Part shown: positions 5,696 to 39,901 of the stretch, piece after piece
Position numbering within the stretch: the first letter of the stretch is position 1
How the letters are laid out: every line of letters begins with the position of its first letter
DNA from: an uncultured Verrucomicrobiota bacterium
GTDB taxonomy: Bacteria; Verrucomicrobiota; Kiritimatiellia; RFP12; UBA3636
NCBI GenBank assembly: GCA_947169825.1
Contig: CAMVRE010000007.1
Span: 1-39,901 of the forward strand
Reading direction: 5' to 3'
Length of the DNA: 39,901 nt
Position numbers and translations under genes: made by a program
Notes under the pieces: model-generated
Seen by the model: only the letters and a program-made list of their open reading frames with translations
Database searches by the model: none
Told to the model about the DNA's origin: nothing

Positions 5696-5834
5696 TGGAG
5701 TTATCCCCTTTTCATGTTTCTGTTCACGAATTGAAATGTCGAATTAGTGTTTTCATTCACGAACGGCCACGAGACTACCATATCCAAAACGAAGATGCAA
5801 GCGAAATTGCTGGTGCGGCACCTTCCAACGCCCT

Positions 5835-5872
5835 CCGTGGCGGGGTGCGGGCGAGCTCGCACCCCGCCACGG
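5835..5872. repeat. Perfect 15-bp stem inverted repeat
   Basis: CCGTGGCGGGGTGCG and its exact complement flank an 8-nt loop. A purine/pyrimidine context without a T-run makes a classical terminator unlikely. It may be a copy of a dispersed REP-like element; nothing nearby on the plus strand needs termination. Confidence 0.7.
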
Positions 5873-5998
5873 AAGACTTGCGCGCCCACGTAAGATTTCC
5901 GTCCTTTGGACGGGTAAGGGGTAGAGCATCGGCATCCCGCCGGCGCCTGGTCCGGAAACCCTTTGGAGATCACCCCGAGAGAGAAGCGCGAAACGGAG

Positions 5999-7916: not shown

Positions 7917-10900
7917 ATGAAAACCACCCTCCACCCCCTCCTTCCCGCCCTCGCGGCTCTTCTTCTTCCCTGCCCCAGTTTTGCCGAGATGCAACGCATA
8001 GGGAATTACATGTGGTTCTATTCGCTTTCTGACGATTCGGCGATAGTTACTGGAGTTACCCCCGAATCGGGCATCCTGGCAATTCCGAATTCCCTAGGAG
8101 GCAAAGCTGTGACGAGCATCGGGAATCGTGCGTTTTACGATTGTTCCAGACTGACGTCGGTCACGATTCCGGACAGCGTGACGAGCATCGGGTCCTCAGC
8201 GTTCCGGGGTTGTTCCGGGCTGACGTCAATCACGATTCCGGATGGCGTAACGAGCATTGGATACGATGCGTTCTACAATTGTTCCGGGCTGACATCGATC
8301 ACGATTTCGGATGGCGTAACGAGCATTGGATACGATGCATTCCGAGGATGTTCCGCGCTGACGGAAACTCGAATCAATATCACCGACAATGCGAAATGGG
8401 CCGAAAACTCTATCAATTCCAAACTGATGGGTGAAAGGCGACTTTTTGTCAATGGCGAAGAAGTCGCGAACTTCGTCATTCCAGATGGCGTGACGAGCAT
8501 CGCAGCCAATGCGTTTTCTGGTTGTTCCGGTCTGACTTCGATCACAGTCCCTGACGGCGTAACGAACATCGAGAATTCGGCGTTTTTCGGTTGCTCCGGA
8601 CTGACTTCGGTCACAATCCCGGACAGCGTGACGAGAATCGGAAACTTGGCATTTTCCGGTTGTTCCGACCTTCTGTTCGATACAAATACCATTTCCAACG
8701 TCAAGCTTGTCGGCGAATGGGTAATTGGATGTTCGGAATTACTATCCGGCGAATTAAATTTGACGGGGATCCGAGGAATTGCAGGTGGTGCATTTTCCGG
8801 TTGTTCCGGGTTGACATCGATCTTGATTCCGGACGGCATGACGAGCATCGGTGACTCCGCGTTTGAAGGATGTTCCGGGCTGATGTCGATTACGATTCCG
8901 GACAGCGTGACGCGCATCGGGAATTCGGCGTTTTCGGAGTGTTCCGGGCTGATGTCCGTCACGATTGGAGCGGGGCGTACTTCACTTGAAGGCGTCCCCA
9001 CATCCGTCTACGAATTCCACATTGACGGTGATTCTGAATTTTTAACTGAAATCGGCGGCGTGCTGTTCAGTAACGACGAAAGAAATCTGATTCGGTTTCC
9101 GGAGAAACAAACTGGCGAGTATTCCATTCCGGACAGCGTGACGAACATCGAAAAGTCGGCGTTTTCCGGTTGTTCCGGATTAACGTCGATCTCGATTCCG
9201 GACTGTGTGACAAGCATCGGAGACGGGGCGTTTCAGAGTTGTTCCGGGCTGACGTCAATCTCGATTCCGGACGGCGTGATGAGCATCGGAGGCGATGCAT
9301 TCTCCGATTGTTCCGGGCTGACATCGATCACGATTCCGGACAGCGTGACAAGCATCGGAAGCGGCGCGTTTGAAGGTTGTTCCGGGCTGACATCGATCAC
9401 GATTCCGGACAGCGTGACAAGCATCGGAAGCGGCGCGTTTGAAGGTTGTTCCGGGCTGACATCGATCACGATTCCGGACAGCGTGACGAGCATCGGAGGC
9501 GGGGCGTTTCAGAGTTGTTCCGGACTAACGTCAATCTCGATTCCGGACAGCGTGACGAGCATCGGGGACAGCACGTTTTCCAGATGTTCCGGGCTGACGT
9601 CAATTACGATTCCGGACAGCGTGACAAGCATCGGGTATTACGCGTTTTACAATTGTTCCGGGCTGACGTCGATCACGATTCCGGACAGCGTGACAAGCAT
9701 CGGAGACGGCGCGTTTGAAGGTTGTTCCGGGCTGTCATCGCTTGTAATCGGAAAAGGCGTTACGAACATCAGGACATATGCGTTTCGGGGTTGTTCCGGA
9801 CTGGTATCGGTTGCGATACCGAGAAGCGTTACCAGTATCGGACAGGGAGCATTCTACGGTTGTTCAAGTCTAGGGAAGATTCTTCTTCCTTCATCCTTTG
9901 ATCTTGGGTCGGACAACTGGAGATTGGCGGGATCCCAAATTACCCGGTATCAGATTGCTGTCGATTTCTCCGCGAATTCCGGAACGTTAGCGGGACAAAA
10001 AACATGGTTGCCTGTCGAGGTTCTGTCAGAATATGGGAAATTTGGCAGTTTTCCAAGCCCTTCTAGATTGGGATACCTGTTTTCAGGATGGGAATTACAT
10101 GGAGCCATCATTCAGACAAACAATATCGTGAATGAGACAACAAACCATGTCGTTATAGCAAGATGGGCCCCCATTGAATACCGCGTTACATTTGATGCAA
10201 ACGGAGGAATGCTTGGCGAGGGCGAAGAATCGAAAGTGGTGGCGTTCGGCGCGGCGTATGGTGTGCTGCCCACGCCGACATTCGAGTCACACTCCCTCAA
10301 GTGCTGGAGTCTTGACGGTTCAGCCGTCACCGGGCAGACCATCGTTGCCACGCCTTTTAACCACGTCCTCGTCGCTGAATGGAACATCGGTATTGGCGAC
10401 GGCGTCTGGGAGTTTCCGGAAGGAGATGGCCCCATCGCGCTCGGCGAACCGCTCGTCGCGCCGTCGGGCGAGATCGTGATCCCCGACAAGATCGACGGGC
10501 GGCCGGTGGTGGAAATCGGCGCGGACGCCTTCGCGGGGAACGCGTCGATTACCTCGATCACGATTCCGTCGAGCGTGACGAACATCGCGGACGGCGCGTT
10601 CGCGGGATGTACGGGGCTGAAGACGGTTGCGGTCGATTCGCTGCGCGGCAACCGTTTTGCGGCGTTCCTGCCGGACCTCGCGGAAACGGTGGAGCGCGTG
10701 GTCTTCCGCGACGGCGTGACGGCGATTCCCGACAACTTCTTCAAGGGCTGCACAGCGCTGCGGACGATGGACCTCGCGGAGAGCGTGGTCGACATCGGGA
10801 CGAACGTGTTCGAGGCGTGCAGCGCGCTGGAGACGGTCGTCTCGAACGGACTGGAAATCTGCGACGGATGGGTGCTCGGGATGGCGAACGGCGCATCGGC

Positions 10901-25860: not shown

Positions 25861-25910
25861 CGCTCCGCATCCCGTCGCGCCCGAGCGCCCTTCTGTTTTC
25901 CGGGGCGTTC

Positions 25911-25919
25911 TGCTAGAAT
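25911..25919 (+). promoter_or_regulatory. Extended -10 promoter of miaB
   Basis: TGC-TAGAAT with the hexamer at 25914-25919; the -35 is weak (TTCTGT at 17 bp). Only 8 nt (CCGCGCCC) lie between the -10 and the ATG, predicting a leaderless transcript. Confidence 0.6.
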
Positions 25920-25927
25920 CCGCGCCC

Positions 25928-27394
25928 ATGCCCGCGCACCCCGCCTTCTCGATCCATACCTACGGCTGCCAGATGAACGTCCGCGACTCGGACCTCCTGG
26001 CGCGCCGGCTCCGCGCCGCGGGCTTCGCCGAGGCCGCGTCGGAGGACGAGGCGGACGTCGTCCTCGTCAACTCCTGCTCCGTCCGCGAGAAGGCCGAGGA
26101 GAAGGCGATCGGCAAGCTCGGCATGCTCTGCGCCGCCCGCCGCGACCGCCCCGGGCTCGTCGTCGGCCTCACCGGCTGCATGGCCAACCGCCTCGGCCCC
26201 GACGTCTTCGGCCTCGTCCCCGGGCTCTCCTTCTCCGTCGGCCCCCGCGCCGCCGGCCCCGCGATCGTCGGCCTCGTCCGCCGCGCCCTCGACGGCGCGA
26301 AGGGGATGTTCGTCCCCGACGCGGATGGTCGCACGGTCGCACGGTCACACGGTCACACGGTCGAGCAGTCGGACAATCTCGCGGTCTCACGGTCGGACCG
26401 TCAGACCGTCGGACCGTGCGACCGTGCGACCACGAAGGAGGCCGGCGCGGACGAGCCGCACGGCTCGTCCGCGCCGGCCTCCTTCGTGACGATCTTATTC
26501 GGCTGTAACCAGCGCTGCTCCTACTGCATCGTGCCGTCGGTGCGCGGCGGCGAGGAGAGCCGGGACCCGCGTGCGATCGTCGCCGAGGTCCGCGAGGAGG
26601 CGGCGCGCGGCGCGAAGGACGTGTGCCTCCTCGGCCAGAGCGTGATGCGCTACGGCCGCATGGGCTTCGCCTGGCCGGAGGGCCTCCCCTCCCCCATGGG
26701 CTTCTCGGAGCCGCTCCCGCGCCTCCTGGAATATATTGCGCGCGAGGTGCCGGAGGTGCGCCGGCTGCGGTTCACGTCGGGCCATCCCTCGGGCGTCACG
26801 GACGAGCTCGTCCGCGCGATGCGCGAGATTCCCGCCGTCTGCCCGCACCTGCACCTGCCGATGCAGAGCGGCTCGGACCGCATCCTGCGCGAGATGCGCC
26901 GGGGCTACGACTCCGCGCGCTACCTCGCCGCCGTCCGCCGCCTGCGCGAGGGCGTCCCCGACATCGCGATCACGACGGACATCATCGTCGGCTACCCGGG
27001 CGAGACGGAAGAGGACTTCGAGGACACGCGCCGCGTCATGGAGGAGGCGGGCTTCGACAACGCGTTCGTCTTCAAGTATTCGCCGCGCCCCGGCACGCCC
27101 TCCGCGCTCCTCGAGGACGACGTCCCCGACGAGGAGAAGCGCCGCCGCGACCAGGTCCTGCTCGCCGACCAGGACGCGCGCGGCCAGCGCTGCAACGACC
27201 GCTGGGTCGGCCGCACCGTCGAGGTCCTCGCCGAAGGCCCCTCCCTGCGCAACCCCGCGCGCTGGTCCGGCCGCACCGGACAGAACAAGATCGTCGTCTT
27301 CGACCCCGCCCCCGGCCTCCGCGCCGGCGACTTCGTCTGCGTCTCCGTCTCCTCCGCCCGCCCCCAGACCCTCTACGGTGAAATCGCCGGCTGA
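25928..27394 (+). CDS. miaB: tRNA-2-methylthio-N6-isopentenyladenosine(37) synthase with in-frame repeat insertion
   Basis: Radical-SAM methylthiotransferase that adds the 2-methylthio group to i6A37 of tRNAs. The N-terminal MTTase domain carries cluster cysteines C14 (YGCQMN), C50 (NSCSVR) and C84 (TGCMAN). The radical-SAM motif is C193-x3-C197-x2-C200 (CNQRCSYC). A TRAM domain occupies the last 65 residues. Between the two iron-sulfur domains, residues 134-187 are extra. They are encoded by an 8-bp tandem array and then a perfect 27-bp inverted repeat. The insert keeps the frame and lies in the natural hinge, so the enzyme may still work. At 488 residues it is longer than most MiaB proteins (about 440-475). 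It probably heads an operon with hslO, the SGNH hydrolase and the PHP gene. Confidence 0.95.
   Translation: MPAHPAFSIHTYGCQMNVRDSDLLARRLRAAGFAEAASEDEADVVLVNSCSVREKAEEKAIGKLGMLCAARRDRPGLVVGLTGCMANRLGPDVFGLVPGLSFSVGPRAAGPAIVGLVRRALDGAKGMFVPDADGRTVARSHGHTVEQSDNLAVSRSDRQTVGPCDRATTKEAGADEPHGSSAPASFVTILFGCNQRCSYCIVPSVRGGEESRDPRAIVAEVREEAARGAKDVCLLGQSVMRYGRMGFAWPEGLPSPMGFSEPLPRLLEYIAREVPEVRRLRFTSGHPSGVTDELVRAMREIPAVCPHLHLPMQSGSDRILREMRRGYDSARYLAAVRRLREGVPDIAITTDIIVGYPGETEEDFEDTRRVMEEAGFDNAFVFKYSPRPGTPSALLEDDVPDEEKRRRDQVLLADQDARGQRCNDRWVGRTVEVLAEGPSLRNPARWSGRTGQNKIVVFDPAPGLRAGDFVCVSVSSARPQTLYGEIAG
26327..26432 (+). repeat. In-frame 8-bp tandem array inside miaB
   Basis: Units CGGTCGCA, CGGTCACA and similar in the first half turn into GACCGTCA, GACCGTCG and GACCGTGC in the second half. 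The second half is thus close to the reverse complement of the first, and the array itself is a loose inverted repeat. It encodes DGRTVARSHGHTVEQS and onward. Confidence 0.92.
26431..26488. repeat. Perfect 27-bp inverted repeat with 4-nt loop inside miaB
   Basis: The arm starting CACGAAGGAGGCCGG (26431-26457) and its exact complement (26462-26488) flank GCAC. It is fully inside the reading frame (residues about 168-187) and directly abuts the 8-bp array. In RNA it would form a very stable GC-rich hairpin; in DNA it could extrude as a cruciform. Confidence 0.95.
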
Positions 27395-27411
27395 CCGATC
27401 GCCCATCTCCC

Positions 27412-27439
27412 CTCTCTCGTCACTCGTCACTCGTCACTC
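27412..27439 (+). repeat. 7-bp TCGTCAC array before hslO
   Basis: Three full TCGTCAC units plus partial ones fill the 49-nt gap between the miaB stop and the hslO GTG, ending 4 nt before the start codon. There is no Shine-Dalgarno sequence in that gap. Confidence 0.85.
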
Positions 27440-27443
27440 CCCC

Positions 27444-28331
27444 GTGGTCAAGCCCCGCACCAACGACGCCGCCGTCGAGGCGTTCTGCCCCAAGACCCGC
27501 CTGCGCTTCCTCTACGCGGACGTGTCCGCGACGGCGCGCCGCCTCGCGAAGGCGCACGGCGACTCGCCCGCCGCCGCCGCGATCCTCGGCAAGGTGCTCG
27601 CCGGCACGGCCGCCGCGACGATCGACTTCAACGAGCCCGGCGAGCGGCTCGTCGTCGCGGCCAACGTCAAGGGCCCGCTCGGCGGCTGGCGCGCGGAGAT
27701 CTCCGGCGAGGGGTTCCTCACGGGCTCGCTCCAGGAGCACGACCCCGAGTCGCTGCGCAATGCGGGCGACGGCGCCGACGAGTGGTGCGGCCCCGGCGCC
27801 GCCGCCAAGGCGACGCGCCTGCGCGAGGACGGCACGATTCGCTCGCAGGTCTCCTTCGAGTGCAAGGGGGGCGCGCCCGAGTCCGTCTACGCCGCGCTCT
27901 TCTGCTCCGCCGTCCCGACGCGCCTGCGCCTCGTCTGCACGATGTTCGACGGCGAGATCGATCGCGCCCGCGCCCTCGCGCTGCAGCTCGTCCACGAGGG
28001 CTCGCGCCGCGCCTTCAAGCGCGTGGAGAAGCTGTTCGACGACGGCACCGTCGCCGACACGCTCGCCTTCGACGCGACGCTCCCGACGCTCCGCGAGATC
28101 CTCGGCGTCGAGGATCTCGTGACCGGCCCCACGCGCGCGATCGCCTTCGGCTGCACCTGCTCCGAGAAGCGCTTCCTCGACGCCTACGCCGCGCTCCCGC
28201 GCGAAACCCTTGAGGGGATGCTCCGCCCCCTCCGCCCCCGCGAGGAACGCTGCCACCTCTGCGGACGCCGCTACACCATCACCCCCGAGCAGCTTGTCCA
28301 AGTCCTCCAATCCAAAACCGAAACGAAATGA
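27444..28331 (+). CDS. hslO: Hsp33 family redox-regulated chaperone
   Basis: A 295-residue holdase chaperone activated by oxidative unfolding. The four zinc-binding, redox-sensing cysteines are in the expected C-terminal order: C237-T-C239 (FGCTCSEKR) and C270-x2-C273 (CHLCG). The N-terminal part has GKVLAGTAAATIDFNEPGER, and the conserved GPLGGWRAEISGEG shows the substrate-binding core. The start is taken as GTG at 27444 (MVKPRTNDAA); the longer track ORF begins inside miaB in another frame. Its TGA overlaps the ATG of the next gene (ATGA), so those two are translationally coupled. Confidence 0.93.
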   Translation: MVKPRTNDAAVEAFCPKTRLRFLYADVSATARRLAKAHGDSPAAAAILGKVLAGTAAATIDFNEPGERLVVAANVKGPLGGWRAEISGEGFLTGSLQEHDPESLRNAGDGADEWCGPGAAAKATRLREDGTIRSQVSFECKGGAPESVYAALFCSAVPTRLRLVCTMFDGEIDRARALALQLVHEGSRRAFKRVEKLFDDGTVADTLAFDATLPTLREILGVEDLVTGPTRAIAFGCTCSEKRFLDAYAALPRETLEGMLRPLRPREERCHLCGRRYTITPEQLVQVLQSKTETK

Positions 28332-31394: not shown

Positions 31395-31442
31395 TCCAAT
31401 GAGCCGCCCGCGCCCGCCCGGCGCTTGGCCGCGCCATCTTCC

Positions 31443-31561
31443 ATTGTGCATTGTGCATTCTGCATTGTGCATTGCACACGGCGCCCGACTTCGTCGATTG
31501 CGTCGATTCGGTCGATTGGGTCGACCGGCCGCTCGCCGGGGAGGCCCGCCCCCGATTCCGG
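31443..31561 (+). repeat. Composite repeat, copy A
   Basis: About 4.5 ATTGTGC units (31443-31474), a short link ending CGCCCGACTTC, three GTCGATTNN 9-bp units (31492-31522), and a CCGGCCG...GGGGAGGCC core. Copy B at 31703-31842 has the same order with a different unit count. This is part of the 595-bp space between nadD and the DUF2971-like gene, which holds no gene I can support. Confidence 0.88.
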
Positions 31562-31702: not shown

Positions 31703-31884
31703 CATTGTGCATTGTGCATTCTGCATTGTGCATTGAACATAGCCGCGCCCGACTTCGTCGATTGCGTCGATTCGGTCGATTGCGTCGATTCGGTCGATTG
31801 CGTCGCCCGGCCGCACTCCGGGAAAGGCCTCCCCTGCCCCAGCTTCTCGACGAAACCGACGACGCCGACGACATCGACGAACCA
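31703..31884 (+). repeat. Composite repeat, copy B
   Basis: ATTGTGC units (31703-31735), the same CGCCCGACTTC link, five GTCGATTNN units (31756-31800), and a CCGGCCG...GGGAAAGGCCTCCCC core to about 31842. A looser GACGANNNC array follows to 31884. Copy A has three GTCGATTNN units where this has five. Confidence 0.88.
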
Positions 31885-32959: not shown

Positions 32960-35900
32960 TCAGCTCCTGAACGTTACCGTGCATCCATTCGGAATGTTCA
33001 TTCGGGACGTTTTTCCGCGGAAACGCCCAGGAAGCGAAAGCAATGTCAGCCCGGAACAATTTTCAAACACGTATTCCCCGATGCTCGTCACGCTGTCCGG
33101 AATCGTGAGCGACGTCAGCCCGGAACAACCCCAGAACGCAGCGCCCCCGATGCTCGTCACGCCATCCGGAATCGTGATCGACGTCAGCCCGGAACACCAG
33201 GCAAACGCATAGCCACCAATGCTCGTCACGCTGTCCGGAATCGTGATCGATGTAAGTCCGGAACAACCTGAAAACGCATCGCCACCGATGCTCGTCACGC
33301 TGTCCGGAATCGTCGTGTTCATGCACCCGACCACGAGGACATTATTCGCCGAATGGACGATTGCCATGCAATTGTCACGGGAGTCGTAAGCCGGGTTGTT
33401 TGGATCGACCGTGATCGACGTCAGCCCAGAACAACCGTTAAACGCGTGGTTCCCGATGCTCGTCACGCTGTCCGGAATCGTGATAGAGGCCAGCCCGGAA
33501 CAACCGGAAAACGCTCCGTCCGCGATGTTCGTCACGCTGTCCGGAATCGTGATTGAAGTGAGTTCGGAACAACCGGAAAACGCATAGTTCCCGATGCTCG
33601 TCACGCTGTCTGGGATCGTGAGCGACGCCAGCTCGGAACAACCGGAAAACGCAGAGTCCCCGATGCTCGTCACGCCGTCCGGAATCGTGAGCGACGTCAG
33701 CCCGGAGCAACCGTAAAACGTATAGTTCCCGATGCTCGTCACGCCGTCCGGAATCGTGATCGACGTCAGCCCGGAACACCAGGAAAACGCAGAGTCCCCG
33801 ATGCTCGTCACGCCGTCCGGAATCGTGAGCGACGTCAGCCCGGAACAAACGTAAAACGCAGAGTCCCCGATGCTCGTCACACTGTCAGGAATCGTGACCG
33901 ACTTCAGCTCGGAACAATTGGAAAACGCCTCACTCCCGATGCTCGTCACGGGCAGACCGTCGATTTCGGCTGGAATGACAAAGTCTCCGGTTGGTTCCTG
34001 CAGAGTTCCCGTAATCGTGACGGTGCCGCCTGAAACAGTCCAGGAGAGAACTTCTTCGGGCATCCACTGCGCCGTGAGCGTCGCGCCGCCGAGCGGCATC
34101 GTCGCCGGGAACGCCGGCGACCAGCCGGCAAACATAAAACCATCGCGCGTCGGGGGCGACGGTGCGGTCAGCGCCGCACCGTAGGGAGCCGTGATGGACG
34201 CGACGGCGCTGCCGCCGGCGCTGTCGAACGAAATCGTGTAGCTGCGCGGTGTCCACTGCGCCGTGAGCGTCGCGCCGCCGATCGGCATCGTCGCCGGGAA
34301 TGCCGGCGACCAACCGGTGAACGAGTAGCCGTCCCTCGTCGGGGCGTTTGGCGCGGCGAGGGCCGAACCGTAGGGAGCCGTGATAGGCTCGACCGCGCTG
34401 CCGCCGTTTGCGTCGAAACGCAGGGTGAAGACGTCCGGCGTCCAGACCACTTCGTCCACCCAGCCGCAGTCGGAGCCGGAGGAGCCGCTGCCATCCTTGT
34501 CGTAGCGCCAGCGCAGAACGTGGACGCCGGCGCCGGAGACCGGAAAGGATTCCTGCGCCCAGGTGCCGCCCGTCCCGCTGACGCCCGCCTGCTGCGATCC
34601 GTCGACGAAAAAGCGCAGGCAGTCACAGTCGTCTTCGCTCGAGGCCTTCCACCAGAAGCTCACCGCGCCGGGACCGGTCACCGTGGTTTCGATCCACGTG
34701 CTCTGGCCGTCGGCGATCGCGCCGCTACGAGCGGCGAAGACGCCGTCGTGCGTGTCGTCGCTTTGGACGAACCACTCGGCTGAGCCGCCCTTCGTGAAGA
34801 CGAGGTCCGGGTTGAGAGCCCGCGCAAGCGACACCTGCCATGCCGCCACGAGGGTCAAGTCGCACCACGGGACCGCGGTCGTTTCGTCCGCCGGCAGACC
34901 GCCCGTTGCGCGCGTCCGCCACCCGAAGAAGTCGTAGCCGTCCCGCACCGGCACCGGCAGCAGGCCGAGAGCGCCCGGCGCATCGTAGGTCCGCGTGGCG
35001 GGGTCCACGGTGCCGCCGGCCGGGTCGAAGGTCACGACGACCGAACCCGGCCAGGCGCGCTCGTCCACGCCGCTTGCGCTCCCGAGCGCCACGCGCACCT
35101 GGTAGAACCGGTGCGACGGCTCGACCGGGCACGACCATTCGTCCGCCAGGTCCGCCTTGCCCCAGACGGTATAGACGCGCCCTGCGACGTTCGACGGCCA
35201 CCACGTCACGACCGGTTCGCCGCCGTCCATGTCGATGAACACCCGGAAGTCGTCCTCCTTCGTCGGATCCAGCCCCGCCACGTAGCATTCCCAGACCGGG
35301 CGCCCGTTCTCCGCCGTGGCGAGGGCCGCCGCCTCGAACGCGGCGTCCGGCGCACCCTCCGCCGCGAGACCGTGCGAGACGAGCCAGTCGAGCGGCACCG
35401 GCGCGGGCGTCGTCGCCGTCGCGCCGGGAACCGCCGCGGCCCCGGTCCACGACACGCGGTCCAGATACCCGCGGTCCTCCGCCGATCCCATCTCGTTCCA
35501 GAAGACGAATCGGACCTCGTGCGATCCCGCGCCGGCAATCGCGACGGACACCTTGATCCAGGAGCCAGCCTCATCGCTTTCGATCCAGGTTTTCGTTACT
35601 TCGTCGACCACGAGGTCGATGCCGGAGCCGCCCGCTGAGTCGAGCCGCCACGACCAGGAGAGCGTGCCGGGACCGACGAGCGTCGTCGAGAGGATGCTGT
35701 CGTCGGCGGTTCCGGCCGGACCGCTCGCGGCGGCGTCCTCCCCGTCCGCCGTCGTCTTCGTCTGCGGCGTCCAGGCGTTGCTCCCCTCGCTCGTCCAGAC
35801 GAGTCCCGGAGCGTCGAGCGCCGTTGCCAGTCCCGTCGGCTGCGCCGTCAGCACGATGTTGCGCGGGCCGTCGCACGGGACCGCGATCGTCCGCGCCGCC

Positions 35901-38900
35901 GCATCCAGCGCCACGCCGTTCGTGTCGCCGCCGAGCGTCACGGCGCAGTCCCCCTCCCAGAAGACGTCGAACGCCACTTCGAGCGCCGTTCCCGCCGCGC
36001 GCCAGCCCGCCTCGAAGTCCGCTACGACCGGTCCCTTCGCTTCAAGCGAAATCCAGTGGTCCGTCCGCCAGTTCCACGCGAGCGTCGAATCCTCCTGCAT
36101 CGTGAACGAGACCGACGAGCCCGAGCCGCTCGCCGGGACGCTCCCCGTCCCGGTCCATCCCGTGCAGAGGCGTCGCGTGCCGTCCTCCTCCGGCGGTGCC
36201 GCCACGCTCGCGGTCACCATGTCGCCCCACGAGTGCATGTAGGTCCCCGGAGCCGGCGATGCCGTCCCGAACGCGCTTGACACCGCGAGCGAGACCTTGC
36301 GCTCCGTAATCGTCGCACGGATCGTCCGCGGACCGTCGGCCGGGACGGAGAGCATCGATCCGGAGCGTGTCACGCCCTCCGTATCGCCCGAGAGCGCCAG
36401 GTCGTAGAGCGTCCAGTCCGGAGAAAGCGCCACCGAAAGGATCGTTCCCTCCGCCGCCCATTGCGGCCGGATCGCCGTCGTCCCGCCGCTTTCCACCGCG
36501 ACGTCGATCCAATGCTCCGTCCGCCAGTTCCACGTAAGAGACGAATCCCCCTCGACCGTGAACGTCATGTTCGTTCCCGTGCCACTCGCCGGGACGCTCC
36601 CCGTCCCCGTCCAGCCCGTGCAGACGCGGCGCGTCTTTCCGCCCGCCGTCGGAGCCGGCGGCTCGACGCTTGCCGCGACCTTCTCCCCCCAATAGACGAC
36701 GTTCGTTCCAGCCGCCGGAGTCGGCGTGCCGTCCTTGCTCGACACCGTCAGCGCGTGGCGGGACTGCCAGCACACGTCGTCGAGGAACGCCGCGCCGCCC
36801 GCCCCCGAGCCTCGCTCGAATGTCCAGCGCAACGCGTGCTCGCCCGCCCCGAGCTCCAGTGGGCCGACCGCAGCCCAGTCCGTCGAGCGCGTGATCTCGG
36901 CCTTGTTCGTCCCGTCCACGTAGAAGCGGGCGTAGTCGCTGCGGTTCGCGGTAATCTTCCACGAGAACGAAATCCGCCCCGGGCCGACGACCGCCGTTTC
37001 GAGCGCGTTCGTCCCGCCCTGCGCCACTTCGCCGCTTTGCAGACAGAATCCGTCGGCCCGCGAGTTGTCCGCCACCGCGAACCAGGGCGCGTCTGCACCA
37101 TCCGACCACGGGAGCGGCTTGCCTGTTCCGCTCTCTCCCGCCTCGCCGCGCGTCAGCACATGCAGTCCCACCGCGCGCGGCCGGTCCGCCGGAATCGCGA
37201 TCGTCCCGATCGACGGGTCGACCGTAACGCCGTTCGCGTCACCGGACAGGACATACGAGAACGGCCGCGTGGCGGGCGCGAAGGCGAACACGGCCGCTTC
37301 GCCGTCCTTCCGGAACCAACCGCTTCCCGGTCCCGATAGCGCGGCGTCGCCCGACAACTCGCACTCGATCCAGACATTCGTCTCGCCCCACAACCATGTG
37401 ATCGACGAATCTTCGAGCATCAGCACGTCGACCCGGTTGCTCGTTCCGCTCGCCGGGACGCTCCCGGTCCCCGTCCAGCCAGTGCACACATAGCGAACGC
37501 CCGGGTTCCCGGAATCGACCACCGACGCCTCGGCCGAACAGCGGACGACGAAATTCGACGGAACCTTGTGCGTGCCGAGGAACGGATCCGCGCCGCCGTG
37601 TTCCGACACGACGGACAGATACACAGGATCGTACCGAATGATCGTGCAGCCCGACGGGACCGCCGGCGTTCCGGAATACGACCTCGACAGATACAGCGTT
37701 TTCAGTCCGGAACAACCGGAAAACGCAGAGTCCCCGATGCTCGTCACGCTGTCTGGGATCGTGAGCGATGTCAGCTCGGAACAACCGGAAAACGCAAAGC
37801 TCCCGATGCTCGTCACGCTGTCTGGGATCGTGAGCGACGCCAGCTCGGAACAACCGAAAAACGCGGAATCCCCGATGTTCGTCACGCTGTTCGGAATCGT
37901 AATCGACGTCAGTCCGGAACAACCGGAAAACGCGGAATCCCCGATGCTCGTCACGCTGTTTGGAATCGTAAACGATGTCAACCCGGAACAACCGGAGAAC
38001 GCACGGTTTCCGATGTTCGTCTCGCTGTCCGGAATCGTAATCGACGTCAGTCCGGAACAACCGGAAAACGCGGAATCCCCGATGTTCGTCACGCTATCCG
38101 GAATCGTAATCGACGTCAGTCCGGAACAACCGGAAAACGCGGAATCCCCGATGCTCGTCACGCTGTTTGGAATCGTAAGCGACGTCAACCCGGAACACCA
38201 GGCAAAGGCAGAGGCCCCAATGCTCGTCACACTGTCCGGAATCGTAACCGACGAGAAGCCGGAACAACCGGAAAACGCCGAGTTCCCGATGTACGTCAGA
38301 CCGTCCGGAATCATCAGGTCTTTGATTTCGGCCCCGTCCAGGAATAGACGATGTGCATAGCGGCAGGGGTTGGCATAGGGACCGGCAAAGTCAATGTCAC
38401 ACCATGCCGCCAAATCGGAGATGTGGACCGACGTAAGGCCGGAACAACCGGAGAACGCAAAACGCCCGATGCTCGTCACGCTGTCCGGAATCGTGACCGA
38501 CGAGAGCCCGGAACAACCGGAAAACGCCCGGGCCCCGATGCTCGTTACGCCGTCCGGAATCGTGATCGACGAGAGGTCCGAGCAACCGGAAAACGCCCAT
38601 TCCCCGATGCTCGTCACGCCGTCCGGGATCGTTGCAACGCCATGGATGCCGACAATCAGTTTTTTGGCATCTTTCGAGAGCAATAGCCCGTTTCTGGAAG
38701 AGTAGGTCGAATTGCTCTCGTCGACGACAACCGACGTCAACCCGGAACAACCGTAAAACGCCCCGTGCCCGATGCTCGTCACGCTATCCGGAATCGTGAC
38801 CGACGAGAGCCCGGAACAATCTCGAAACGCATCGCTTCCGATGCTCGATACTCCGCCCGGAATCGAAATCGACATGAGATCGGAACAACCGGAAAACGCC

Positions 38901-39901
38901 CGGTTCCCGATGTTCGTCACGCTGTCCGGAATCGCGACCGACGCGAGGCCGGAACAATCGGAAAACGCATCGTTCCCGATGATCGTCACGCTGCCCGGGA
39001 TCGTGACCGACGTCAGCCCGGAACAACCGGAAAACGCATCGTTCCCGATGCTCGTCACGGTGCGCGGAATGAGAAGTTCCGTGAGCTCTTCGCCATCGGC
39101 AAACAGTCGCCTGTTTCCTCTCAGTTTGGAATTGATGGAATTGGTGGCCCACTTTGCAATATCGGTGACGTTGATTCTCTTTTCCACCAGCCTGGAGCAA
39201 CCGGAAAACGCACGGCTCCCGATTCTCTTCATGCCATCCGGAATCGCGACCGATGTCAGCCCGGAACAACCATAAAACGCCCATTCGCCGATGCTTGTCA
39301 CACTGTCCGGAATCGTGACCGTCGTCAGTCCAGCGCAATTTTCAAACGCCCGGTCCCCGATTCTCGTCACGCCGTCTCCGATCGTGACCGACGTCAACCC
39401 GGAGCAATCTTCAAATGCAGATCCCCCGATGCTCGTCACGGAGTCGGGAATCGTAACCGACGTCAGCCCGCGACAATAGTCAAACGCATGATCCCCGACG
39501 CTCGTCACGCCGACCGGAATCATGATTGACGTCAGCCCGGAACAAACGTAGAACGCTCTGAACCCGATGTTCGTCACCGAGTCGGGAATCGTCACCGACG
39601 TCAGCGCGCGACAATAGTCGAACGCAGAATCCCCGATGCTCGTCACGCCGTCCCCGATCGCGACCGACGTCAGGCCGGAACAATCGTGAAACGCACCGCT
39701 CCCGATGCTTCTCACGCTGCCCGGAATCGTGACCGACATCAGCCTGGTGCAATTCTCAAACGCAGAGTCCCCGATGCTCGTCACGGAGTCGGGAATCGTG
39801 ACCGACGTCAACCCGGAACAACCTCGAAACGCACTGTCCCCGATGCTCGTCACGCCGTCCGGAATCGTAATCGACGTCAGCCCGGAACAACCGGAAAACG
39901 C
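32960..39901 (-). CDS. Second giant BspA-like LRR / B-repeat protein (5' end outside window)
   Basis: The frame is open to the right edge, so the N-terminus and any signal peptide are missing; at least 2313 residues are visible. The M on the ORF track (39853) is a GTG inside an LRR, not a start. The order from the N-terminal side is: BspA LRRs (39901 to about 37.7 kb), interrupted by LAAWCDIDFAGPYANP-type segments. Next come three repeats of VCTGWTGTGSVPASG (37.5-36.1 kb), alternating with three beta-sandwich modules (GPGTLSWSWR, GAGVHVLRWRY). The linker WECYVAGLDPTK is near 35.3 kb, two or three B-repeats (FDANGGSAVEPITAPYG) lie at about 35.0-34.0 kb, and a last LRR block ends in NGCTVTFRS. 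It shares every module except the beta-helix with the 7.9-15.5 kb protein. No C-terminal anchor is seen. Confidence 0.92.
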   Translation of the reverse strand, partial: AFSGCSGLTSITIPDGVTSIGDSAFRGCSGLTSVTIPDSVTSIGDSAFENCTRLMSVTIPGSVRSIGSGAFHDCSGLTSVAIGDGVTSIGDSAFDYCRALTSVTIPDSVTNIGFRAFYVCSGLTSIMIPVGVTSVGDHAFDYCRGLTSVTIPDSVTSIGGSAFEDCSGLTSVTIGDGVTRIGDRAFENCAGLTTVTIPDSVTSIGEWAFYGCSGLTSVAIPDGMKRIGSRAFSGCSRLVEKRINVTDIAKWATNSINSKLRGNRRLFADGEELTELLIPRTVTSIGNDAFSGCSGLTSVTIPGSVTIIGNDAFSDCSGLASVAIPDSVTNIGNRAFSGCSDLMSISIPGGVSSIGSDAFRDCSGLSSVTIPDSVTSIGHGAFYGCSGLTSVVVDESNSTYSSRNGLLLSKDAKKLIVGIHGVATIPDGVTSIGEWAFSGCSDLSSITIPDGVTSIGARAFSGCSGLSSVTIPDSVTSIGRFAFSGCSGLTSVHISDLAAWCDIDFAGPYANPCRYAHRLFLDGAEIKDLMIPDGLTYIGNSAFSGCSGFSSVTIPDSVTSIGASAFAWCSGLTSLTIPNSVTSIGDSAFSGCSGLTSITIPDSVTNIGDSAFSGCSGLTSITIPDSETNIGNRAFSGCSGLTSFTIPNSVTSIGDSAFSGCSGLTSITIPNSVTNIGDSAFFGCSELASLTIPDSVTSIGSFAFSGCSELTSLTIPDSVTSIGDSAFSGCSGLKTLYLSRSYSGTPAVPSGCTIIRYDPVYLSVVSEHGGADPFLGTHKVPSNFVVRCSAEASVVDSGNPGVRYVCTGWTGTGSVPASGTSNRVDVLMLEDSSITWLWGETNVWIECELSGDAALSGPGSGWFRKDGEAAVFAFAPATRPFSYVLSGDANGVTVDPSIGTIAIPADRPRAVGLHVLTRGEAGESGTGKPLPWSDGADAPWFAVADNSRADGFCLQSGEVAQGGTNALETAVVGPGRISFSWKITANRSDYARFYVDGTNKAEITRSTDWAAVGPLELGAGEHALRWTFERGSGAGGAAFLDDVCWQSRHALTVSSKDGTPTPAAGTNVVYWGEKVAASVEPPAPTAGGKTRRVCTGWTGTGSVPASGTGTNMTFTVEGDSSLTWNWRTEHWIDVAVESGGTTAIRPQWAAEGTILSVALSPDWTLYDLALSGDTEGVTRSGSMLSVPADGPRTIRATITERKVSLAVSSAFGTASPAPGTYMHSWGDMVTASVAAPPEEDGTRRLCTGWTGTGSVPASGSGSSVSFTMQEDSTLAWNWRTDHWISLEAKGPVVADFEAGWRAAGTALEVAFDVFWEGDCAVTLGGDTNGVALDAAARTIAVPCDGPRNIVLTAQPTGLATALDAPGLVWTSEGSNAWTPQTKTTADGEDAAASGPAGTADDSILSTTLVGPGTLSWSWRLDSAGGSGIDLVVDEVTKTWIESDEAGSWIKVSVAIAGAGSHEVRFVFWNEMGSAEDRGYLDRVSWTGAAAVPGATATTPAPVPLDWLVSHGLAAEGAPDAAFEAAALATAENGRPVWECYVAGLDPTKEDDFRVFIDMDGGEPVVTWWPSNVAGRVYTVWGKADLADEWSCPVEPSHRFYQVRVALGSASGVDERAWPGSVVVTFDPAGGTVDPATRTYDAPGALGLLPVPVRDGYDFFGWRTRATGGLPADETTAVPWCDLTLVAAWQVSLARALNPDLVFTKGGSAEWFVQSDDTHDGVFAARSGAIADGQSTWIETTVTGPGAVSFWWKASSEDDCDCLRFFVDGSQQAGVSGTGGTWAQESFPVSGAGVHVLRWRYDKDGSGSSGSDCGWVDEVVWTPDVFTLRFDANGGSAVEPITAPYGSALAAPNAPTRDGYSFTGWSPAFPATMPIGGATLTAQWTPRSYTISFDSAGGSAVASITAPYGAALTAPSPPTRDGFMFAGWSPAFPATMPLGGATLTAQWMPEEVLSWTVSGGTVTITGTLQEPTGDFVIPAEIDGLPVTSIGSEAFSNCSELKSVTIPDSVTSIGDSAFYVCSGLTSLTIPDGVTSIGDSAFSWCSGLTSITIPDGVTSIGNYTFYGCSGLTSLTIPDGVTSIGDSAFSGCSELASLTIPDSVTSIGNYAFSGCSELTSITIPDSVTNIADGAFSGCSGLASITIPDSVTSIGNHAFNGCSGLTSITVDPNNPAYDSRDNCMAIVHSANNVLVVGCMNTTIPDSVTSIGGDAFSGCSGLTSITIPDSVTSIGGYAFAWCSGLTSITIPDGVTSIGGAAFWGCSGLTSLTIPDSVTSIGEYVFENCSGLTLLSLPGRFRGKTSRMNIPNGCTVTFRS

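Follow-up and report, generated by a model that had tools for sequence, protein, structure and literature searches.

In an uncultured bacterium of the Kiritimatiellae, the gene for the tRNA methylthiotransferase MiaB carries, in frame between its UPF0004 and radical-SAM domains, an array of 8-bp repeats that belongs to a dispersed family, followed by a perfect hairpin partly made of the gene's own sequence (Table 1). It is best read as one of several protein-coding palindromic octamer arrays, whose hairpins are probably made and kept by fold-back template switching and which are probably translated as near-neutral, disordered linker. The window, the whole 39,901-nt stretch of DNA that was analysed, is contig 7 of a 3.08-Mb metagenome-assembled genome (MAG; G000; 73% complete, 394 contigs, short-read) whose nearest named relatives are Verrucomicrobia/Kiritimatiellae MAGs of the ruminant gut. 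The miaB frame is open across both array and hairpin, and the product scores as full-length MiaB by NCBIfam and Pfam, with UPF0004 at residues 7-98 and Radical_SAM at 189-369. An AlphaFold2 model (39 MiaB sequences) has a mean pLDDT of 87.8 and drops below 50 only at residues 134-180, so that the insert is predicted to be a disordered spacer separating well-folded domains. These Pfam boundaries and the low-pLDDT segment bear out a first, sequence-only reading of the DNA, which had placed the insert in the hinge between two domains. The linker counts 82 residues in G000, 69 in G006, 56 in both G008 and G010, 52 in G002, 53 in G009 and 75 in G001; it spans 52-62 in most other members of the genus and has a median of 46 outside it. 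By this comparison, the array accounts for a net gain of 26 residues, and the hairpin sits in a linker of a length ordinary for the genus. The earlier figure of about 54 extra residues was too high, since the right hairpin arm encodes MiaB's own conserved APASFV.

Table 1. Features of the miaB region, by position in the window, and in-frame fillings of the carA linkers by genome
Feature	Position	Strand	Genome	Remarks
miaB, tRNA methylthiotransferase, 488 codons	25928..27394	+	G000	NCBIfam TIGR01574, 388 bits over cut-off; Pfam UPF0004, Radical_SAM, TRAM
UPF0004/radical-SAM inter-domain linker	26240..26491	+	G000	Length varies in the genus (52-82 aa), ~46 aa elsewhere; sequence comparison, AlphaFold pLDDT
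Whole 8-bp array, member of dispersed family	26327..26432	+	G000	~40 matches in G000, 19 in G006, 30 in G008
Array, forward half	26327..26362	+	G000	Units GGTCGCAC / GGTCACAC
Array, reverse half	26383..26432	+	G000	Units GTNNGACC; pairs with forward half
Hairpin, left arm	26431..26458	+	G000	In G006 gone together with loop and part of right arm (39 nt, in frame)
Hairpin, right arm	26461..26488	+	G000	3' part is native coding sequence (APASFV)
7-bp array CTCGTCA, another repeat of the array class	27416..27439	+	G000	Between miaB and next gene
carA filling: 7-mer TCGTCAC and 16-bp hairpin			G008
carA filling: 9-mer, TTCAACC type			G007, G003, G001
carA filling: CAACCACC type			G000
carA filling: 7-mers ACAATGC and CATTCAG			G010
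carA filling: 15-mer			G010, G002

The array is itself a hairpin. Its halves had been described as near reverse complements, and indeed their outer 37 nt are 89% complementary. The RNA of positions 26300-26500 folds with -147.7 kcal/mol (z = -12.4 against shuffles), placing the array stem and the hairpin stem side by side. The second of these, thought at first to be a flawless 27-bp inverted repeat with a 4-nt loop, is flawless and slightly longer: 28 bp, 100% complementary, around a loop of 2 nt. Within 437 kb of G000 sequence no other perfect hairpin is as long, the runner-up reaching 17 bp, and this one lies far beyond chance, first-order Markov shuffles yielding 0 stems of at least 15. A general excess of short perfect stems is no peculiarity of G000, as G003, G008 and G010 share it; in G003 no stem of at least 14 was found within 200 kb. 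The genome-wide search suggested by the sequence-only reading had a divided outcome: the array recurs at about 40 places in G000, and the hairpin arm has weak partial matches only, so the hairpin is not a dispersed family. Nor is it an intrinsic terminator, since no GC stem followed by a T run occurs in 25900-27500, and an Rfam search of the window returned 0 matches.

As a dispersed repeat, the array is matched at 40 places in G000, at 19 in G006 and at 30 in G008, three close species, with single weak matches in G009 and G001. It had 0 matches in 25 other relatives searched, six of them of the same genus; within this search, which covered 19 genomes from elsewhere in the family and order, the repeat is confined to a few close species of one genus of ruminant-gut Kiritimatiellae. 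Coding arrays were called by their open frame, which builds frame retention partly into the sample, and by this definition at least 14 genes hold the array in frame: miaB, priA, murC (a murC-murB fusion), purL, mutL, pyrK, and the genes of a T2SSE+FHA protein, an ABC-ABC protein, a polysaccharide pyruvyl transferase, a glycogen-debranching/amylase protein, an MBOAT protein, a helicase, a glycosyltransferase and a cellulase-like ORF. All hosts were identified by Pfam or NCBIfam, save the last, which is without a family match. The sites are mostly linkers or loops, such as those before the C-terminal domain in mutL, before the helicase part in priA and between the two ATPases of the ABC protein, and the arrays measure about 80-90 nt in most genes. 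The orthologous arrays of priA, mutL, ABC, csaB and gde are seen again in G008 or G006. Where a gene is shared, the lengths of orthologous arrays vary in threes (by 21 nt in priA, by 3 nt in ABC). Palindromic organization distinguishes 11 of 14 coding arrays versus 3 of 18 noncoding ones (p = 9e-4), the latter being mostly one-directional. As regards the array, these data uphold the early idea of an element whose entry into coding DNA need not destroy it: the array is dispersed, in frame in 14 genes, and matched by an empty site in murC.

Several individual copies deserve mention. The array interrupts the MutL linker in both G000 and G008 (L100:2088-2169; L047:190-271); MutL, which acts in mismatch repair, normally keeps the instability of repeats in check. 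G009 (L153) has another tandem repeat (TAGTEG) at the site that the 8-bp array occupies in the priA linker of G000 and G008. Eight of the 18 noncoding arrays (L069:6249, L076:13482, L083:17362, L090:5442, L095:318, L098:1058, L008:1571, L057:361) end in ..GACCATG, whose ATG apparently starts the following ORF, putting these intergenic copies directly on translation starts. An array also lies between two ORFs of a rumen phage contig from a viral collection, IMGVR_UViG_3300028805_000022 (L288:7887-7924), where it gives stops to one ORF and abuts the ATG of the next.

The codon phase of the reverse units is the reason to believe that the array is translated. With a unit of 8 bp, an array would be read in all three phases and yield a single 8-residue cycle, RSHGHTVT; its reverse half would then give TGA once every 24 nt, a codon that in genes is mutated away. 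The reverse unit GTGTGACC contains TGA in one of three phases. In noncoding arrays, half of the reverse units (50 of 100) are of this form. In coding arrays it accounts for 8 of 42 units lying out of stop phase and for 0 of 15 lying in it, a zero partly built in by the use of the frame to call coding arrays. The replacement of GTGTGACC by GTCGGACC in 12 of those 15 is not built in. Together with net lengths in threes, this avoidance of in-frame TGA supports the further suggestion of a repeat under selection to stay in frame.

Among the relatives, whose MiaB sequences were aligned as the first reading had advised, the insert varies in length: only the array is found in G006, and only a hairpin in G008, G010 and G002. 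G006, with a MiaB 98% identical, retains the array and misses 39 nt in frame, comprising the left arm, the loop and the start of the right arm. G008 has the hairpin with one difference, which is G-U compatible, and lacks the array; its gaps of 51 and 27 nt are both multiples of 3. G010 and G002, also without array, bear hairpins of other sequence at the same place. Since each part is found alone in a close relative (the array in G006, the hairpin in G008), the two do not form one mobile unit, and what had been read as a single element goes back to two separate events, with the gene's own sequence as the hairpin's right arm. This arm codes for the conserved APASFV ahead of the radical-SAM motif, and the left arm tracks its changes. 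Arm pairs changed on both sides number 5 between G000 and G010, 6 between G000 and G002, and 5 between G010 and G002, almost every pair still being Watson-Crick. Such covariation is equally expected from selection on the stem and from template switching.

Hairpins made with host-gene sequence recur at other arrays. Perfect hairpins with arms of at least 8 adjoin coding arrays at 10 of 28 flanks, compared to 5.3% of 1878 control windows (Fisher p = 1.5e-6), and their outer arm is often host-gene sequence. At noncoding arrays, 0 of 36 flanks have one; among coding hosts, none is present in ABC, csaB, dinG, pyrK and MBOAT. The murC locus captures the arrangement most directly. G008 and G009 have the empty site, and the G000 insert is 114 nt longer, a length divisible by 3, with no target-site duplication visible at the site. 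The insert begins with CGTCCCCGCCGAGCG, which repeats 15 nt from the native left flank in inverted form; among 500 shuffled murC inserts, the inverted flank copy averaged 7.7 and reached a maximum of 13. The new arm at murC is thus a reverse-complement copy of adjacent native sequence. In carA, two linkers hold different in-frame fillings in different species. Hairpins of 15, 15, 13 and 10 bp occur at the first linker in G000, G008, G010 and G009, respectively, the right arm consisting of each species' own codons for the conserved (R)PLVAV, and in 13 genomes outside the genus this linker has no stem above 8. The second linker has a hairpin arm of 16 in one species, and inserts are found there also in some other genera of the order (G020, G023, G032).

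Fold-back template switching, which we regard as the probable origin of these hairpins, could act as follows. The miaB array would be one copy of a lineage-specific dispersed octanucleotide repeat that, like the other 7-9-bp arrays here, enters genes and survives where the frame is kept and the linker is flexible. The hairpin would stem from the gene: in a template switch during replication, the nascent strand would fold back at the array-gene junction and copy the flank. Later re-copying of one arm from the other could yield the paired changes between species, slippage across the hairpin could yield the 39-nt loss in G006, and translation would turn the product into a disordered spacer of little or no function. 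Perfect stems arising in one step and multi-base compensatory changes are both documented outcomes of template switching (PMC8794818), which also homogenises hairpin arms within coding DNA (PMC8604942). That the array spread from site to site, and that it is near-neutral for MiaB, we likewise infer; no recombinase or source copy for the array was identified. Selection or a second mechanism may also act, because a purely mutational process should not prefer genes, and between genes the flank hairpins are absent and palindromic arrays few.

The most serious alternative, albeit an unlikely one, is that the hairpins are selected, a strong mRNA stem at domain boundaries slowing the ribosome (or protecting or cleaving the mRNA) and the arrays being kept as suppliers or carriers of the stem. 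It would account for the flank hairpins and the palindromic build that mark coding arrays and not noncoding ones, for arms that covary, with the one G008 difference G-U compatible, for different hairpins in the same carA linker of different species, and for the very stable fold. The same covariation is, however, predicted by template switching without selection (PMC8794818), several hosts have no flank hairpin, linkers outside the genus are mostly without insert or long hairpin, and G006 has lost its miaB hairpin with no other sign of damage. Similarly unlikely is the extended proposal that, where the domains of essential proteins meet, this lineage keeps a hairpin-capped repeat as an exchangeable signal in the mRNA, for example a pause for co-translational folding. 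If true, sequence would turn over between species while structure and position persist, and hairpins and palindromic arrays in genes, not between genes, would be explained. It is improbable that the array is a non-autonomous mobile element of the MITE/REP type moved by a Y1/RAYT-like transposase, with the hairpins as part of the target or product. The array is dispersed, palindromic in genes, where it mostly measures about 80-90 nt, and present in a phage contig, and Y1_Tnp (PF01797) has matches in 10 of 11 genus genomes; yet its ends are not fixed, its unit number is variable, murC shows no target-site duplication, and unrelated 7-, 9- and 15-bp arrays act alike in carA. The Y1 matches show no correlation with the array, and transposases are equally present in genomes without arrays, so that a Y1 transposase is an improbable cause. 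Very improbable is an insert absent from the protein, whether spliced out of the mRNA or bypassed in translation: array and hairpin do fold as closed adjacent stems, but splicing or bypassing would require neither the kept frame in the hosts examined nor in-frame TGA avoidance. An assembly or amplification artefact, conceivable in a short-read MAG of 394 contigs with chimera-prone hairpins, is scarcely credible and was rejected, since MAGs obtained independently have the array (G006) or the hairpin (G008, RUG10674) starting from the identical base position, and the arrays of priA, mutL, ABC, csaB and gde have orthologous counterparts in G008 or G006.

Lineage-specific tandem arrays of a 7-bp class, dispersed in the genome and mostly between genes, are familiar as the cyanobacterial short tandemly repeated repetitive sequences (STRR). 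Unlike these, the present arrays join the two orientations and are also found in frame inside housekeeping genes. Closer parallels are the Rickettsia palindromic elements (RPE) and Wolbachia repeats, which are likewise dispersed palindromic DNA tolerated in frame in conserved genes, form stem-loops, and differ at the same site between species (PMC3767692, PMC2229807). The array appears to work like an RPE but is not one by host, residing in Kiritimatiellae rather than Rickettsia or Wolbachia. RPE are 100-150-bp families with their own sequence, whereas here 8-bp tandem units, different in kind, vary in number and often end in a hairpin drawn from the flanking host gene. Template-switch hairpins (quasipalindrome mutations) likewise arise as inverted copies of local sequence, with perfect stems and with changes that are paired, and are known from coding DNA as well (PMC8794818, PMC8604942); the present ones stand at the junction of dispersed array and gene, in linkers, are up to 28 bp long and recur in several genes of a single lineage. 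Coding palindromes of Nematomorpha mitochondria resemble them as long perfect inverted repeats in working protein genes whose arms code for conserved residues, but are mitochondrial and up to 284 bp, and the abstract of that account mentions no tandem arrays (PMC6649704). PARCEL is similarly a translated palindromic repeat spreading between genes, but it is a 25-residue protein motif, often in membrane-targeted proteins, in contrast to an 8-bp unit in enzyme linkers (PMC2996958). A literature search on Kiritimatiellae repeats gave nothing relevant. Palindromic repeats colonising protein genes in frame are known mainly from Rickettsia and Wolbachia; here they occur in a gut lineage that is uncultured and unrelated to these, their unit is not a triplet, and the genes affected include core ones such as mutL, priA, murC, carA and miaB. 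Because close relatives offer empty, filled and differently filled sites, the steps of linker evolution can be read from sequence, and it can be asked whether selection maintains long coding hairpins or template switching leaves them as by-products.

Other repeats accompany these arrays. Two identical 7-bp CATTGTG arrays lie 261 nt apart in the window (31442-31474 and 31703-31735). Stems with GTGGCGGGGT, possibly a REP-like or terminator family, occur outside recognised coding frames in G000, G008 and G010 (window 5834-5873; L082:2988-3021; L131:1559-1601; L109:8663-8698). Long 69-bp tandem repeats occupy window positions 8141-9740 and 33078-39901, and presumably encode leucine-rich surface-type proteins.
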